64,000 nucleotides of DNA, taken from the NCBI GenBank assembly GCA_902779055.1, contig CACZAD010000017.1, positions 37,864-101,863 on the forward strand, in the 5' to 3' direction. Under the pieces are notes generated by a model that saw only the letters and a program-made list of their open reading frames with translations, was not told the origin of the DNA and searched no databases. Shown one piece after another: positions 5,148 to 64,000 of this stretch (positions within the stretch are counted from its first letter, which is position 1; each line of letters opens with the position of its first letter). The stretch comes from Fibrobacter succinogenes (GTDB lineage: Bacteria > Fibrobacterota > Fibrobacteria > Fibrobacterales > Fibrobacteraceae). Both the position numbers and the translations under genes were made by a program.

Positions 5148-6737
5148 TTAGTGGCGCTTTTTCTTGTTGTTGAGTTGGATTGCAGTTGCGCCGCCGCATT
5201 TGCCACCGTTATACGGACCAATGGCCTGGATGTTGAAGTTGTAGGAACCCGGTGCTGCTTGCATCTTGAATCTGAGGGATGAAAGCATTCTGGATGCCTG
5301 TTCGCCAGTGACTTTGGTTTTGCCCTTGTACCAGGTGGGCTGCTTGAAGTCGGACCATTTGAGGAACTTTGTCGTGCCGGCGGTGCTCTTCGGGAGTGCT
5401 ACTGCCGGTAATGCGTAATCGATGGTGGCGTCCATATTGTCACCGAGGCTCATTTCGAGGGACGGAGCGACTTGGGAGCTGTAAGTGATGCATACACCGC
5501 CCATGCCTGCGGCATCGGCCTGTGCGAGATATCCAGTTTCCGATTCACCGGCCAAGCCGAAACCTACGCCGACGAACGGATTGTAAGTCAAGTTTCCCTT
5601 GGCGAGAACAGCCGTACCGCAGAGGCCTCCGCAGTAGTCAATGATCGGATCCATGGCATCGACGCTGTATTCGTTACCGGGTTCCACGGGCCAGACGACC
5701 TTTGAAACTCCGCCGTCTGCGTCATCACTGAAGCTGTACCAATAGCCGGATGTTTCGGTGCCGTTGTCGTAACCGGTTTGGATTTGGTATTCGCCATTGT
5801 AACCGAACCAGGTTTCGAAATTATTTGTTTCCGGTGCGGGCGGGATGATGATCACCGTATCTACCGGATTCGGATCTTCCGATAAAGTTGGAGGCAAGTA
5901 AACCGGGAGCGAGGATGCTTCGCAACCATCGTATGGGCCAACGGCTGTGATGTTGAAACGGCCCACGGTGGCGTCGGGTCCCTGGAATTTGAATCGGAGC
6001 GATACGAGTTCCTGGGCGGCTTTGTCGCCAGGCATCTTGAAGGTTCCCTTATACCAGGACGGCTGCTTGAAATCGGACCAGGAAATGAACTTTGTTGTGC
6101 CCGTAGTGCTCTTGGGGAGGCTCACGTACGGAACGGCGTAACCGATTTCCGCTTCGGTTTTGTCGCTGAGGCCCATTTCGAGTGCGAGTGCCATCTCGGA
6201 TGCGTACGTGACGCAGACGCCGCCCATGCTGGTAGCATCTGCCGCTTCTGGGGTCATGTCGGTGTAGCTTCGTTCTCCGACGAGATTGAAACCGACGCTG
6301 ACAAACGGGTGGTATGTCAAGGTTCCCTTGCTGAGTGCGTAAGTGCCGCAAAGACCGCCGCAGTATTCGATGATCGGATCTATGGCGTCGTCGCTGTATT
6401 CGTTACCTTTGGGGACGGGCCAGATGATTTGAGACTGTCCGCCATCATCGTCATCATATCTGGAGAACCAGTAGCCGTTTGTTTCTGTTTCGTTGCCGAA
6501 CCCGGTTTGAATTTGCCAATTGCCGTCATAGCCGTACCAGGTCTCGAATGGACTGTGCTGGTGAATGGCTGAAGAAGAACGGGGCTTGTTACTGGATGAA
6601 CTTGCTTGTATAGGATTGTCGTCCGAGGGATTGTGCAGGTGCGATTCGATGTAATCGCATGCGGTAAGTGCCATGGACGCTGCTGTTACAGCAAGGATTG
6701 ATGCCTTAGGGTACGATTTTCTTTTTGTTTTTTTCAT
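5148..6737 (-). CDS. Two-module secreted lipoprotein (CxGxCG module family)
   Basis: A 529-residue lipoprotein with signal peptide and lipobox LTAC (Cys27), a Ser-rich spacer (46-56), then two tandem modules at residues 64-270 and 307-510. Each module shows GYDGNWQIQTGF or GYNGEYQIQTGY, GYW, a WPV block, YCGGLCGT, GGVC-x-TY, LPKST, WSDFKQP-x-WYKG and FNI-x-A-x-GPY in the same order. The linker (280-305) is Pro-rich and the tail ends KKKRH. The same module occurs twice in each of the lipoproteins at 61298-62776 and 62839-64000. AGGAGGA sets the start. Surface location follows from the lipobox. I do not recognise the domain; the regular spacing and the GPY ending suggest a beta-sandwich, perhaps carbohydrate-binding, but that is a guess. 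Confidence 0.8.
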   Translation of the reverse strand: MKKTKRKSYPKASILAVTAASMALTACDYIESHLHNPSDDNPIQASSSSNKPRSSSAIHQHSPFETWYGYDGNWQIQTGFGNETETNGYWFSRYDDDDGGQSQIIWPVPKGNEYSDDAIDPIIEYCGGLCGTYALSKGTLTYHPFVSVGFNLVGERSYTDMTPEAADATSMGGVCVTYASEMALALEMGLSDKTEAEIGYAVPYVSLPKSTTGTTKFISWSDFKQPSWYKGTFKMPGDKAAQELVSLRFKFQGPDATVGRFNITAVGPYDGCEASSLPVYLPPTLSEDPNPVDTVIIIPPAPETNNFETWFGYNGEYQIQTGYDNGTETSGYWYSFSDDADGGVSKVVWPVEPGNEYSVDAMDPIIDYCGGLCGTAVLAKGNLTYNPFVGVGFGLAGESETGYLAQADAAGMGGVCITYSSQVAPSLEMSLGDNMDATIDYALPAVALPKSTAGTTKFLKWSDFKQPTWYKGKTKVTGEQASRMLSSLRFKMQAAPGSYNFNIQAIGPYNGGKCGGATAIQLNNKKKRH

Positions 6738-37507: not shown

Positions 37508-40360
37508 GTGGGCGGGGTAGTGTATTTTTTGTATTTTTGGGCAGAAATTTTAATAAACTGCTTTATAGGTAGGTCTATTCTGCGTTCCCGTTCGCTTTTA
37601 TTCATTCTTGCTTTGGTCGGTCTGTCGAATGCCCAGCTTTTGGATATGTCGCAGATTTCCGACAAGTATATGGTTGAGAATAAGATCAACAAGATTCGTG
37701 TCGAAGGTACTCATCACATGGATGACCGTTCCGTTATCGGTCGTGTGGGTATCCGTGTCGGACAGACCTTTTCTCCTACGTCGCTTTCTGAAAAAGTCCA
37801 GAACTCGGTAAGCTCCCTTTATGCATCGGGCCTGTTCGACGATGTGACGGCCTGGGTCGATTATGTGGGTGAAGGATCCGATGTGGATTTGGTGTTCAAG
37901 GTCAAGGAACTCCCCGCTTTGGATACGACCATCTTGGACGGCTGCGACGAAGTTTCCGAAGACGATTTGCGCCTGAAGATCCATATGGTTCCGGGCCAGG
38001 TCTATAGCAAGGCTCAACTCGAACGTACGCGCCAGGCTTTGCTTGAACATTACCGTTCCGAAGGCTTCCTCCTTGCAGAAGTGGGCTACCGCGAAGAACC
38101 GACCGACGAATACCAGAACAAGGTGACCTTTCTGATCCGTGAAGGTGCCAAGGTGCGTGTCCGCGGCTTTGACGTGAAGGGCAATGACCACGTGCCGGTC
38201 GAAGAAATCACGGACCACATGCTTTCCAAGGAAAACCAGTGGTGGGGCGGTGGCGAATTCAAGGAAAATGTCTTTGAAGCCGACCGTGATACCGTGCTGA
38301 ACGTGTTCCGTCATTTTGGTTTCTTGGATGCAGAACTCAATGACTACCATGCAGAATACCTGCCGGATTCTACCTGCCTCTTCTATCTTGGACGCATGGT
38401 GCCGGTTGGTGAACGTCTGGCTCCGCTCTATACGCAGCTGAACGAAGCCATCGCGGATTCGTCCAATCCGTTCTATGCTATTGCGGGCAAGCCCTCGATG
38501 GAAGTGACGCACTACTACAGGAACATGCGCAAGGCTGGTGACAAGTCCAAGCTGACGAGACATTTGCCGCAGGTGAAGTCCGAAGAAGACGCCTGGAAGA
38601 TTCTGAACGACATTATCCGCTACGAAAGCGCCCGCAATGAATGGCTTTCCCTCGTTGCCGATAAAAAGTGGAACAACCCGAAGATCGATTCCCTCCTGAA
38701 AATCAAGAAACGCACCGCTTACGAAAGCAAGCTCCTCGTGCGCTACATGATTGAGGATATGATCCCGGCCCTTTACAAGTACGATAACATCAAGACCTCC
38801 AGCGACATCATTGTCCATATCGACGTGACCGAAGGTCGCCGCTACTATATGGGCAACCTCCACTTTACCGGAAACGAAGTCCAGAGCGACAAGATGCTCG
38901 AATACGTGTTCCGCTTGGACAGTGGCGCCGTGTTTGACCAGTACCTCTACGAAGCTTCTAGAAAGGCCTTGCTCGACTCCTACCGCGAAGACGGTTACCT
39001 CTTTGCCCAGTTCGACGAAGAAAGATCGTTCGAAAATGATTCTGTCGTGAACCTCACGTACAGGATGAACGAAGGCTTGCCGGCCCAGATCCATAAGGTG
39101 CATATCCACGGCAACACCAAGACGAACGAAAAGGTGATCCGCCGCGAAGTGCGTCTGTATCCGGGCGACACGTACCGCCAGTCCGCTTTGGAACGCAGCT
39201 TCCGCGACATTATGCAGCTCAACTACTTCGACATGGTTGTTCCGGACATCAAGGTCGTGGGCGAACAGGAAGTGGATCTTGACTTTGCCGTGCAGGAAAA
39301 GCAGGCAGGTACGGGTCAGTTCAGCTTGGGCGTTTCGTACAGTGAAAGCGATGGCTTTGTCGGAACGGCTAGCGTTTCTATCCCGAACTGCTGTATGGGT
39401 GATGGCCAGGCCGCAGCCCTTAGCCTTGAATACGGTACCGACAAGAAGAGCGCTACAATCAGCTTTAACGAACCGTGGTTCCTCGACAAGCCGATTTCGC
39501 TGGGTGCAAGCCTCAGCTATACCTGGTGGAACATGGAAGACTACGACGAACACGACATTACCCGTTACGGTGGTAACATCTATGTGGGTAAGCGCCTCAC
39601 GTGGCCGGACGACTACTTCTACGGACAGATCGGTTACGGCTGGCTCATGAACGACCAGGGCCCGAACATCGACAACAGCTACGTGGTCTATACGGGTATC
39701 GAATCTTCGTTCAACTTCCGTCTCCAGCGTGACGACAAGAACTTGCCGCAGTTCCCGACCGACGGTTCCCGCTACGTGCTTGACGTGCAGTGGGCCAACG
39801 GTGCCATTGGCAGTGACTTTGAATTCGTGAAGGCAGACCTCTCCATCAAGTGGTGGTTCCCGCTCTTCCGCGACCGTCTGTCGATTGCCCTTACGAACGA
39901 ATACGGCGTGATCTTTGGCGACAAGCTGCAGCACCGCACTCTCTACAGAATGGGTGGCGTGCTTGGCTATGACGGTATGCTCCGTGGTTACGGTTCTGGA
40001 TCTGTTGGTTACGGTCGCTTGGGCCGCAGCTACCAGTACATCGGTGCCGAACTCCAGTTGGGACTTGTGCCGCAGACGTTCTACTTGTTGCCGTTCTTCT
40101 TTGATGCCGGTAACGTGTTCGGTGACCGTATCGACACTAACAATCGAATTGACAAGCCCAAGAAGAACCCGCTTAGCGAATGGGATCCGACCTCGCTCAA
40201 GAAGGATATCGGCTTTGGCTTCCGCGTCGTAGTTCCGATGCTTGGCATTATCGGCTTTGACTTTGCCTGGCCGCTCGATCCGGGCGAAGCCTCCAACGGA
40301 ACCCGATACTCCAAGGTCGGCGATATGGAATTCAACTTTGTCATTGGTCAGGCATTCTAG
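37508..40360 (+). CDS. bamA: BamA outer-membrane assembly factor with a large POTRA insert
   Basis: An Omp85-family protein that inserts beta-barrels into the outer membrane. A signal peptide (SLLFILALVGLSNAQ, about residues 29-43) precedes POTRA-type repeats (INKIRVEGTHHMDDRSV, LDGCDEVSEDDL, VRVRGFDVKGNDHVP, HFTGNEVQSDKML, VHIHGNTKTNEKVI). The C-terminal barrel has the LRGYG lid-lock motif and ends in GQAF. About 140 extra, mostly helical and charged residues (about 293-430) interrupt the third POTRA. The frame opens with GTG at 37508, which gives a long N-terminus; ATT at 37577 may be the true start. skp follows 19 bases later. Confidence 0.9.
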   Translation: MGGVVYFLYFWAEILINCFIGRSILRSRSLLFILALVGLSNAQLLDMSQISDKYMVENKINKIRVEGTHHMDDRSVIGRVGIRVGQTFSPTSLSEKVQNSVSSLYASGLFDDVTAWVDYVGEGSDVDLVFKVKELPALDTTILDGCDEVSEDDLRLKIHMVPGQVYSKAQLERTRQALLEHYRSEGFLLAEVGYREEPTDEYQNKVTFLIREGAKVRVRGFDVKGNDHVPVEEITDHMLSKENQWWGGGEFKENVFEADRDTVLNVFRHFGFLDAELNDYHAEYLPDSTCLFYLGRMVPVGERLAPLYTQLNEAIADSSNPFYAIAGKPSMEVTHYYRNMRKAGDKSKLTRHLPQVKSEEDAWKILNDIIRYESARNEWLSLVADKKWNNPKIDSLLKIKKRTAYESKLLVRYMIEDMIPALYKYDNIKTSSDIIVHIDVTEGRRYYMGNLHFTGNEVQSDKMLEYVFRLDSGAVFDQYLYEASRKALLDSYREDGYLFAQFDEERSFENDSVVNLTYRMNEGLPAQIHKVHIHGNTKTNEKVIRREVRLYPGDTYRQSALERSFRDIMQLNYFDMVVPDIKVVGEQEVDLDFAVQEKQAGTGQFSLGVSYSESDGFVGTASVSIPNCCMGDGQAAALSLEYGTDKKSATISFNEPWFLDKPISLGASLSYTWWNMEDYDEHDITRYGGNIYVGKRLTWPDDYFYGQIGYGWLMNDQGPNIDNSYVVYTGIESSFNFRLQRDDKNLPQFPTDGSRYVLDVQWANGAIGSDFEFVKADLSIKWWFPLFRDRLSIALTNEYGVIFGDKLQHRTLYRMGGVLGYDGMLRGYGSGSVGYGRLGRSYQYIGAELQLGLVPQTFYLLPFFFDAGNVFGDRIDTNNRIDKPKKNPLSEWDPTSLKKDIGFGFRVVVPMLGIIGFDFAWPLDPGEASNGTRYSKVGDMEFNFVIGQAF

Positions 40361-60477: not shown

Positions 60478-61308
60478 ATGAAGCCGGTTACGGAATATCA
60501 GGACTACCGCATTTACATGCAGGACTACTATAACGAACGAAAAAGGGTTTCGTCGTTTTCGTGGCGTGAGTTTACGCGTGCTTCTGGCTTTACTTCTCCG
60601 ACGTATCTCAAGCTGGTGTGCGAAGGCAAAACGCGCCTTTCGCCTTTGGGGGCCGAAAAAGTCGGCGCGGCGATGCACCTTGCTGGCTTTGAACTGGAAT
60701 ACTTCAAGTCGCTGGTGGATTATTGCCATGCCAAGACGGACCAGGCGCGCAAAATCGCTTACGAGTCCATGCTGGAGCTGGCGCATGACAACAAGATAAA
60801 GGTTGTTGACGGCGAAGCTTTCCATTATTTTGAATCCTGGGTCCATCCTGTCGTTAGAGAACTCGCTCCCGTGATGCCGGGAGCGACTCCTGGTGAAATT
60901 GCAAAACGTTGCTGTCAGGAGGTCTCCGCCGGGGACGTCCGCGAATCGCTTGATTTTATGGTCCGCTCCGGTCTCTTGAAGCGGAATGGCGATACTTACG
61001 AACAGACGGACAAGCATTTAAAAGGAACTTCCGATATCATGCCTGTGGTGCTGCGTTCGATGCACCGCGAAATGGCTTCGTTTGCAGAAGAGGCCATTGA
61101 TCGTTATGCCCCGTCCGAGCGAAATTTTACGGGCCTTACCATGGGTATTTCGGCCGAAGATTACGGAAAGATCGTGCAAGAACTGGATGCCTGCCGCAAG
61201 AAGATCACGCAGATTGCGTTGAACAGCCGCGGCACGGAACGTGTTTATAGATTGAATTTACAGTTGTTTCCATTGACGTGGAGAGAGGATGAAAACAATG
61301 ATAAGTAG
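60478..61308 (+). CDS. TIGR02147-family regulator
   Basis: A 276-residue protein of the Fibrobacter-enriched TIGR02147 family (DUF4423-related). Typical blocks are DYRIYMQDYYNERKR, FSWREFTRASGFTSPTYLKL, VCEGKTRLS and AFHYFESWVHPVVRELAPVM, with a late NFTGLTMGISAEDYGKIVQE. The N-terminal part looks like a helix-turn-helix and the family is thought to control gene expression, but this is not proven. The end overlaps the following lipoprotein gene by 11 bases, implying co-translation, so it probably regulates or senses that lipoprotein. No good ribosome site; TTTGGA is the nearest. Confidence 0.85.
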   Translation: MKPVTEYQDYRIYMQDYYNERKRVSSFSWREFTRASGFTSPTYLKLVCEGKTRLSPLGAEKVGAAMHLAGFELEYFKSLVDYCHAKTDQARKIAYESMLELAHDNKIKVVDGEAFHYFESWVHPVVRELAPVMPGATPGEIAKRCCQEVSAGDVRESLDFMVRSGLLKRNGDTYEQTDKHLKGTSDIMPVVLRSMHREMASFAEEAIDRYAPSERNFTGLTMGISAEDYGKIVQELDACRKKITQIALNSRGTERVYRLNLQLFPLTWREDENNDK

Positions 61309-62776
61309 AATTCTTGAAGTGTCTCTGTATGCTTTTTTGATGACTATCATAGCGTGTTCCGATGGAGATAACACTGCCGGGGTTACCGAAGACGGTAATC
61401 CGGCTTTTGCCGCTGCGTTCGAAGTTGAGAAACCCGATCATTATGATTTGTGGTCTGTTGATACCAAGACCTCGGATAAGGATAATTCCGGTTACTGGTT
61501 TGATTTGAACAGTTGGGAAGACGATCCCGCTGCTGTCATTACGTTCCCTGCAATGCTTGGCGATGGATCGTCTAGCGATTCGATGAAGGCCATTGTGGAT
61601 TCTTGTGGCGGTGTTTGCGGAACCGTTGAATTTGTGAATTCTCTAAGACCAATGTTGACGGCTGGCGTCGGATTCTCGCTGGATAAGGGTAACTCGTTGG
61701 TCGATGCATCTTCGTGGAACGGCCTGTGCGTTTCCTATGAATCTGATTTTAACATGCGGGTGAAGCTGAGCCTTGACAAGGACGAATACGCGACCGTCAA
61801 TGGCGATTTGCCTTATGCGGAATTCCCCAAGATGCTCAAGCTTGGCACCCGCTGTGCCAAGTGGGAAAGCTTCAAGCACTCTAATGCGGGCAATGTCGCT
61901 ATCGAAGAGGCTGTCAAGAAGGTCGGTTCGCTCGTGTTCGAGTTTATCGGTAAGCCGAACCAGAAGGGTTCCTTCAATATCAAGGGATTTACTTCCCTTA
62001 AGGATGTTGAACAGAATGCTGGCGCAAGTTCTAGCTCCCAGTCCAGCTCCAGTTCTAACGCCACTTCTAGCGTCAAGGTTGTTCATGACACGTTTAATGA
62101 TGTCTGCTCGTTTGTCTCTATCGATGATCTGTGGTATGGCCCGCATTGGGAACCGCAACTGGAACTGCCTTTGGATGACGGCTCGATGACGACTACAAGT
62201 TGGTATGTCCTCTCGGGAATCGGATCGACTGAGGTTTCGCGAATCAAGTGGCCTGTCGCCAAATCTGGAGGTTCTGGGGCCACTGCCATGACACCGATTG
62301 TTGAATACTGTAGTGGTATTTGTGGCGATTTTGTTTTTGACAGCGATGGTTATGCCGGTATCGCGATTGATCTTGCTGGCGGAACCTCGATTAATGGCGT
62401 GAAAAGAAAATATGTGGGTGTCTCTGATTGGGGCGGCTTGTGTGTAACGTATGCTTCGACAAGAATGCTTCAGGTTGTGACGAACAGTGCGGGCTGGCAG
62501 GATGCCGCGAATGACTATTTTGAGATGGGTATTTTTGATATGCCTATGGTGAAATTGCCGAGCAGCCAGCATCTTGTGACTGAGTGCTTTAAATGGTCTG
62601 AATTTATCCCTGCGGACGGAGATCCTGTGGAACCGGATAAAATGGTCTCGATTTATTTTATTGCGGAAGGTGGAGCTGGCGTTTCGGGCAAGTTCAATAT
62701 TGTTGGGTTAGGACGGTATCAGGATCTTGAACATCCTGAATGTGCAGTCAAGGAAAAATATGTTTCGGGATCGTAG
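61298..62776 (+). CDS. Two-module secreted lipoprotein (CxGxCG module family)
   Basis: A 492-residue lipoprotein with lipobox IIAC and two modules of the same family as the 5148-6737 gene (about residues 49-235 and 277-477). Landmarks are NSGYW, SCGGVCGTVEF, LCVSYESDF and RCAKWESFKHS in module 1, and IKWPV, YCSGICGDF, GGLCVTYAS, ECFKWSEF and FNIVGLGRY in module 2. A Ser-rich linker (241-259) joins them. The fourth cysteine (RCAKW/ECFKW) is absent from the 5148 protein. ATG 61298 has a better distance from GAGAGAGG than ATG 61289. It is coupled to the TIGR02147 gene. Confidence 0.8.
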   Translation: MISRILEVSLYAFLMTIIACSDGDNTAGVTEDGNPAFAAAFEVEKPDHYDLWSVDTKTSDKDNSGYWFDLNSWEDDPAAVITFPAMLGDGSSSDSMKAIVDSCGGVCGTVEFVNSLRPMLTAGVGFSLDKGNSLVDASSWNGLCVSYESDFNMRVKLSLDKDEYATVNGDLPYAEFPKMLKLGTRCAKWESFKHSNAGNVAIEEAVKKVGSLVFEFIGKPNQKGSFNIKGFTSLKDVEQNAGASSSSQSSSSSNATSSVKVVHDTFNDVCSFVSIDDLWYGPHWEPQLELPLDDGSMTTTSWYVLSGIGSTEVSRIKWPVAKSGGSGATAMTPIVEYCSGICGDFVFDSDGYAGIAIDLAGGTSINGVKRKYVGVSDWGGLCVTYASTRMLQVVTNSAGWQDAANDYFEMGIFDMPMVKLPSSQHLVTECFKWSEFIPADGDPVEPDKMVSIYFIAEGGAGVSGKFNIVGLGRYQDLEHPECAVKEKYVSGS

Positions 62777-62838
62777 TGCCGTGATGGCGTTGTAGTCTCG
62801 GTGCTATTCCTGGATTTTGTTTGTTTGAGGGAGGACCT

Positions 62839-64000
62839 CATGTTGCGTAGGTTTTGCGGGCTTGCCGTATCGGCTCTTTTGTTGGGCGTTGTCGCTTGCT
62901 CTGACAACAATCCGTCGGGTGGTGTCGAAGACCCCATTTTGGAGGGCGTTAGCAGTTCGTCTGTAGAAGCGCTTTCGAGCGGTGGCGTAATCGAATCTTC
63001 TTCAAATGGTGCAGTATCTTCGAGTAGCGCGGTAAAAACGGCCCGCTACAATTTGTGGGACCCAGCCATAGATTACAAGGTCAATACGGGTGACGATAGC
63101 ACGGGCTATTGGAAAACTTTTGGCGATAACCTGTTTGGCCATCAGGGCGAATCGAAGATTATTTTCCCTGTCGAACTTGAAGAATCGTCGACGCCGCTTG
63201 CTTCTGTCTTTAAACATTGCGATGGTTTGTGCGGATCGATTGAACCCGATTACTTAATGATCGGTCCCTGGGCGGGTGTTGAAATCCCGCTTGCCAAGGA
63301 CGGCGCTACGGCGGATGTCACGTCTTGGGGTGGTGTCTGTGTCACTTACGAATCTGATTATTTGATAAGCATTTATTTAAAGGTTCAAGTTGATGGGTTT
63401 GATTCTAATAGCATTAGGACTCCGTTTGATGCATATCCTATAGGCTTTTTAGGTAGAACATCGCTTGAAGATTCTCCTGCACCTACGCTTCGTAATATGT
63501 ACTATATTGACGATGTTAAAACTGTATGTAGAAAATGGAGCAACTTTGTTGAAGCCAATTGGACCGATTATAGCGGTTCTTCAAAGGTGAGTAAAGTTCT
63601 TACAGGCGAAGAGGCTGCAAAGAAAATTCAGTCTATCATGTTTGTAATTCAAAGCCGTGGTGATGACGATAAGAAAACTTTCAATATCAGGGGAATCAGT
63701 ACTTACGATCCGAGCGGTTCTAAGTATGATGGGCGACAACCTGATGATGAAAACCCTGTAAAATTTCCTGAAGACGATTCCTTGACCTGCCTGTGGAAAG
63801 GGGGCTTGGGCGATACCTATGTGAATACGGGCTATAATGATCGTGATGAATACGTGGGTATGCTGGTGCCTTTTGATGAGTCTCCTGCTAACTCTTATGC
63901 GCATATTGAATACCCTGCGTATCCGTCGATGGAGTTTGGCCCTGATATGTATGGGGGTGTTATTTGGGAGTGTGCCGGTTTTTGTGGAACGATGGATATT
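62839..64000 (+). CDS. Third lipoprotein of the CxGxCG module family (partial)
   Basis: The frame is open from ATG 62839 to the window end (387 codons). GAGGGAGG precedes the start. A signal peptide with lipobox GVVAC (Cys20) and a Ser-rich stalk are followed by a module with STGYW, KIIFPV, HCDGLCGSIEP, WGGVCVTYESDY, VCRKWSNF and FNIRGIS. A second module has begun and reaches WECAGFCGTMDI at the edge. It lies 62 bases after the previous lipoprotein, so the two are probably co-transcribed. The second copy is more diverged from the others. Confidence 0.8.

Follow-up and report, generated by a model that had tools for sequence, protein, structure and literature searches.

A genus-wide family of CxGxCG modules on predicted Fibrobacter lipoproteins and its proposed place in the CIA30/CBM11 superfamily

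A stretch of 64,000 nucleotides from Fibrobacter succinogenes (assembly GCA_902779055.1, contig CACZAD010000017.1, forward-strand positions 37,864 to 101,863; hereafter the window) contains three genes, A, B and C, whose products are predicted to be bacterial lipoproteins, each with a signal peptide carrying a lipobox and cysteine. Together they hold five full copies (A1, A2, B1, B2 and C1) and one edge-cut copy (C2) of a module of about 200 residues. This module represents a real, large and unnamed family within a known superfamily; profile comparisons and predicted structures are best read as making it a CxGxCG-bearing branch of CIA30/CBM11, a superfamily of beta-sandwiches. The copies are homologous to one another, are akin to modules that follow glycoside hydrolase family 8 (GH8) domains (those of the A type also to the modules of a GH5 cellulase) and are matched genus-wide; their fold is predicted. 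The family is of interest because the grip of Fibrobacter on crystalline cellulose, without cellulosomes or identifiable crystalline-cellulose-binding domains, is still poorly explained. Its abundance in this genome, its occurrence throughout the genus and the lack of a name for the window copies make it a concrete candidate for fibre binding, and, should the modules bind, they would add substantially to the fibre-binding domains known from a major degrader of fibre in the rumen.

Homology, extent and cysteine pattern of the modules

Copies A1 and A2 share 61% identity and the nine other pairs of full copies share 27-32%. Comparisons by phmmer among the five full copies gave E values from 8e-84 to 1e-7 (2e-19 to 1e-7 apart from the A1-A2 pair), far below the best value of 0.015 among 12,000 shuffled sequences, and chance repeats were therefore ruled out. 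The 72 residues of C2 that lie within the window matched A2 at E 3e-5, and A1 at E 0.008 to 0.027, no better than the best shuffled sequence; the homology of this part taken alone is only partly secure. Where C2 continues on contig C7, the module match is clear (E 2e-20). A preliminary description of the window had reported six copies, two per lipoprotein, with landmarks in a fixed order. Two modules per protein holds for A and B, but C has at least three copies once contig C7 is included; the order of the landmarks does recur across modules, but the GYW landmark is missing from B2 and C2.

Six copies also understates the family. By hidden Markov model searches this genome has no fewer than 26 modules, spread over 16 reading frames. 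The frames correspond to 15 proteins, because C is divided between two contigs. A module in the loci examined was counted if it spanned at least 150 profile positions, and the 72-residue start of C2 is additional to the 26. A whole-genome search with the profile of these 26 modules returned 32 matches. Three architectures were seen: lipoproteins with two modules; proteins with a single module and, as judged by eye, a terminal tail (KIVLK/R) like that of type IX secretion system (T9SS) substrates; and a protein of 1211 residues on contig C52 (L030:1023-4655) with five tandem modules without the CxGxCG cysteines. This last protein scores 69.9 bits to CIA30 and passes the Pfam threshold (cut-off 24); its T9SS-like tail scores under the Pfam cut-off.

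Full-profile searches covered Fibrobacter and Fibrobacterota. Every one of the 80 genomes of the genus gave between 2 and 33 matches to the 26-module profile (E <= 1e-5), and matches were also obtained in 122 of the 167 Fibrobacterota genomes, for most of which at most 18 candidates were scored per genome. FSU_3189 (P0108) of F. succinogenes S85 is a member of the family; a literature search returned no paper pairing Fibrobacter with CIA30 and none naming FSU_3189. When a single conserved stretch was used to scan one genome per species, 57 loci were obtained, 56 labelled Fibrobacter and one labelled Treponema (Treponema sp. UBA3870). The latter was ruled out as evidence for horizontal presence in Treponema and is likely mis-binned, because stretches of its DNA are 73-76% identical to a Fibrobacter-labelled contig. 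By eye, the module at this locus is fused behind sequence resembling the Fib_succ_major domain.

The two cysteines of CxGxCG occur together: in a column count over 267 modules (the A set and this genome) 250 had both, 11 neither and 6 one (phi 0.78). The cysteine of xCxKW and the cysteine after FNI tend not to occur together in the same sample (8 with both, 38 and 210 with a single one, 11 with neither; phi -0.76), and a regular-expression count on 521 modules, with the B set added, showed a less clear exclusion (183 with both; phi -0.38). It is as if the GGxC cysteine might pair with either of the two. The co-occurrence of cysteines suggests that the modules contain disulfides, and it is the support for the differing disulfide patterns suggested earlier, which are plausible. 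The observation that the xCxKW cysteine is limited to the second locus was correct, since it is present in B1, B2 and C1 and missing in A.

Fold and superfamily placement

Pfam searches with A, B and C found nothing meaningful and NCBIfam left the modules unnamed, with chance-level matches only (best Pfam/NCBIfam E 0.054 and worse). In the three proteins no match was obtained to CIA30 (PF08547; gathering score 24 bits), even at E 10, or to CBM11 (PF03425; gathering score 27 bits), nor did Pfam detect a catalytic domain of a carbohydrate-active enzyme; a sequence search of the PDB with two profiles (A2 and A3) gave nothing credible. No copy reached a family cut-off, and the profile search thus did not place the six copies in a described family. 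The earlier statement that no known domain has this signature stands as far as Pfam and NCBIfam names are concerned, but profile comparison and predicted structure place the module within the CIA30/CBM11 beta-sandwich superfamily.

Homologue searches, in each of which about 8,000 candidates were scored, collected 663 homologues of A at E <= 0.01 and 144 of B at E <= 0.001; among the 120 matches listed per search, the organism was Fibrobacter wherever one was named. CIA30 was the Pfam family matched by most of the 38 aligned homologues of A that were scanned (11 at E <= 1, best 5.7e-8); four matched the tail family Por_Secre_tail, three matched Sde0182_C, whose name refers to cellulose binding (best E 0.0016), and two matched the CBM6 family PF03422 (E 0.028 and worse). 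Among 44 homologues of B, one matched CIA30 (E 0.11). The only frame of this genome that reached the CBM11 cut-off was C4:2223-2720.

Two predicted structures gave a known beta-sandwich, by which an unrelated new fold was ruled out. The fold search placed CIA30/NDUFAF1 at the top Z in both (7zkq, 7zkp) and also matched CBM11 (1v0a, CtCBM11); its rows for lipoprotein A fall on A2, with A1 hardly tested. Column conservation is found at W90, W106, Y178 and W228 (A numbering).

Direct profile comparison to CBM11 was weak, with probabilities of 7.4 (A3), 1.6 (A type) and 1.0 (B type), and for this reason the modules are regarded as a sister branch and not as CBM11 members. An indirect route leads from the 26-module profile to a set of GH8-type modules (99.4) and from that set to Fibrobacterota CBM11 (96.2). 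Kinship to CBM6, used as a control, was ruled out by a probability of at most 1.3.

Proposed role and competing explanations

In other Fibrobacterota, 20 stretches picked for long reading frames (two came from the same genus) contained 21 matching proteins, 19 of which were scanned with Pfam. Thirteen of these chosen long relatives bear a glycoside hydrolase domain (GH8 in eight, GH44 in four and GH18 in one), and six have no catalytic domain. The GH8-type set was assembled from ten modules whose borders were set by hand, eight being from GH8 proteins. It matched the 26-module profile with a probability of 99.4 (E 4e-21, 164 columns), the A-type modules alone with 99.6 and the B-type modules alone with 98.5. 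The module of one GH8 protein lies narrowly above both Pfam cut-offs (CIA30 24.7 bits, CBM_11 27.1 bits). Two further large proteins, both from the genome of the window (L286:2939-5908 and L287:454-3381), have partial GH44 matches, and each terminates in a module distantly related to the GH8 type (domain E about 2e-13 when four proteins were searched).

In this genome a 919-residue frame (L285:1403-4162) combines a GH5 cellulase domain, two GH8-type modules and a T9SS tail. Its module pair is not detected by PF03425 and reached 95.4 against the 26-module profile, 96.5 against the A type, 9.75 against the B type and 0.9 against CBM11. The layout resembles that of S85 FSU_2914, and layout and length suggest that the two are orthologues; FSU_2914 is tabulated as GH5 (CBM11) and as up 1.93-fold on cellulose in one study (PMC6851124).

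Because relatives occur on enzymes of cellulase families, the modules are predicted to help hold the bacterium on plant fibre. Modules on lipoproteins or on type IX-secreted proteins are likely to be polysaccharide-binding adhesins, and for the lipoproteins we think it fairly probable that this CIA30/CBM11 branch serves as an enzyme-free adhesin or as a means of substrate capture on plant fibre. A, B and C would be displayed outward on the cell surface, the concave sheet face of each module would bind a glycan, probably a beta-glucan-type chain of plant-wall polysaccharide, and a disulfide between the CxGxCG cysteines would make the loop ahead of the LxKG strand more rigid; the three proteins would thus act on fibre as enzyme-free adhesins or substrate-capture proteins. 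The earlier guess that these are binding proteins gains support from the predicted carbohydrate-binding fold and from the fusion of relatives to glycoside hydrolase domains.

The S85 genome paper (PMC3079729) suggests that "other unidentified modules" may play roles like those of carbohydrate-binding modules (CBMs), counts only seven CBM-only genes (CBM4, 6, 30 and 51), among which FSU_3189 does not appear, and reports that fibro-slime proteins have been proposed to act in cellulose attachment. Of 122 hypothetical proteins, 23 were up on cellulose in another study (PMC4668043); no family member was recognised by name in the accessible parts of that paper or of PMC6204037.

The strongest rival, which we judge unlikely, is that the modules dock proteins as CIA30/NDUFAF1 does and assemble envelope complexes, for example of cellulases and fibro-slime proteins, without binding sugar. 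It draws on the top Z of CIA30 in both models, on the CIA30 matches among homologues of A and on the paralogue above the cut-off, and is consistent with a report (PMC6851124) that cellulases occur in Fibrobacter vesicles in one multi-protein complex with fibro-slime, TPR and OmpA proteins.

Less likely again is carbohydrate binding directed at the cell's own coat, at other bacteria or at host mucin, which would serve self-adhesion or biofilm formation and not fibre attachment. The fold is common to CBMs with many ligands. B1, B2 and C1 are strongly divergent from the A type, so that the ligands of the modules may differ, and modules of the B type show no match to the GH5-linked pair. Against this, where relatives are fused to other domains, most of the fusions involve families known for plant-wall enzymes (GH8, GH44 and GH5).

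The genes directly upstream bear on a third explanation. The gene before B encodes a TIGR02147 protein (E 1.2e-85; DUF4423 E 2e-30), predicted to be a regulator; DNA-binding matches were not significant (best PDB match CI repressor, E 0.42; PHROGs E 0.12), and a literature search for the name TIGR02147 found no paper. This genome has 35 TIGR02147 matches, read as 34 places; a lipoprotein-like gene follows directly at 25 of these when a simple lipobox pattern is applied and at 32 when judged by eye. A strict signature, a cysteine after a hydrophobic stretch and then a G...E/T/G..N motif, was found at 20 of the 34 loci and at 21 of 28 loci in other Fibrobacterota (28 of the 30 returned were read), as compared with 7 of 286 control reading frames, of which two appear on inspection to be genuine partners; the signature misses 14 of the 34 and 7 of the 28. 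These counts indicate a putative two-gene cassette that is phylum-wide. Directly behind TIGR02147 genes lie three clear module genes and a fourth, weak one. The ectodomains of the paired lipoproteins vary. By eye, A and a further lipoprotein, D (L027:1487-3028), lack the signature after the lipobox, and C has at most a degenerate form.

A third reading, in which B and related proteins encoded behind TIGR02147 genes serve as sensors that capture a glycan while the paired protein tunes expression, agrees with this pairing but seems very improbable, given the non-significant DNA-binding match and the lack of a TIGR02147 gene directly before A and other module genes in the regions read. Nor was a route found, or put to a test, by which a signal could pass from a lipoprotein of the outer membrane to a cytoplasmic protein.

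A wider form of the adhesin reading is possible but doubtful. In this form the main fibre adhesins of Fibrobacter, so far unrecognised, would be these CBM-like modules stapled by cysteines, up to dozens of which a genome would carry on lipoproteins and on proteins secreted through the type IX system, and one subset would be run by the phylum-wide TIGR02147 cassette, each regulator controlling its own signature lipoprotein to give a switchable repertoire of surface binders.

Genes of the window and comparison with known systems

All three genes named in the preliminary description are present as open reading frames (Table 1). For B, its end was right, but its start, 61298, is a later in-frame ATG; if B starts where its frame opens, the TIGR02147 gene overlaps it by 20 bases. 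For C, the start at 62839 was one base off, that frame having 45 stops; the in-frame ATG at 62840 is the likely start codon. The lipoboxes are LTAC (A), IIAC (B) and, likely, VVAC (C), those of B and C being flagged also by the simple pattern. Serine-rich stalks had been described before the modules; this is so in C, but in B the serine-rich stretch sits between the modules.

Table 1. Genes and modules of the window
Feature	Position	Strand	Description
Lipoprotein A gene	5148-6737	-	529 aa, two modules; Cys27 of lipobox read from sequence
Module A1	5925..6548	-	residues 64-271 of A; AlphaFold pLDDT about 85-98
Module A2	5202..5819	-	residues 307-512 of A
TIGR02147/DUF4423 gene	60478..61308	+	directly upstream of B; predicted regulator
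Lipoprotein B gene	61289-62776	+	495 aa, two modules; Cys23 of lipobox; post-Cys signature SDGDNTAGVTEDGN
Module B1	61439..62002	+	residues 51-238 of B
Module B2	62123..62725	+	residues 279-479 of B
Lipoprotein C gene	62801-64000	+	400 aa within window, cut by window and contig end; N-terminal Ser-rich stalk
Module C1	63044..63712	+	residues 82-304 of C
Module C2, opening 72 residues	63785..64000	+	remainder and module C3 on contig C7:1-1257

The contig of the window (C17) stops at the window edge; contig C7 opens with 99 bases shared with it and carries on the frame of C through the remainder of C2 and into a third copy, C3. The two portions were read separately and not joined. Beyond the continuation of C lie the two-module lipoprotein D and a one-module protein (L027:7492-8496); if the contigs adjoin, four module genes, B included, would lie close together.

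Fibro-slime proteins and the non-catalytic CBM-only proteins of S85 are also among the closest known systems; the modules are likened to fibro-slime proteins by description and not by sequence. By eye, the window modules share W(F/Y)TYxD, LxKGxxxxxPFVGxGF, DIS, WxDFxQPxW and GxxGxxxI with the GH8- and GH5-attached modules; unlike the window copies, the ten aligned GH8-type modules lack the CxGxCG pair and are attached to enzymes. In contrast to CBM11, the window modules carry this pair together with GGxCxTYxS, stand on lipoproteins without an enzyme and are missed by PF03425. They resemble CIA30/NDUFAF1 in predicted fold and, through A-type homologues and the paralogue, in PF08547 matches, but the window copies differ from it in being exported, cysteine-bearing, tandem and under Pfam detection.
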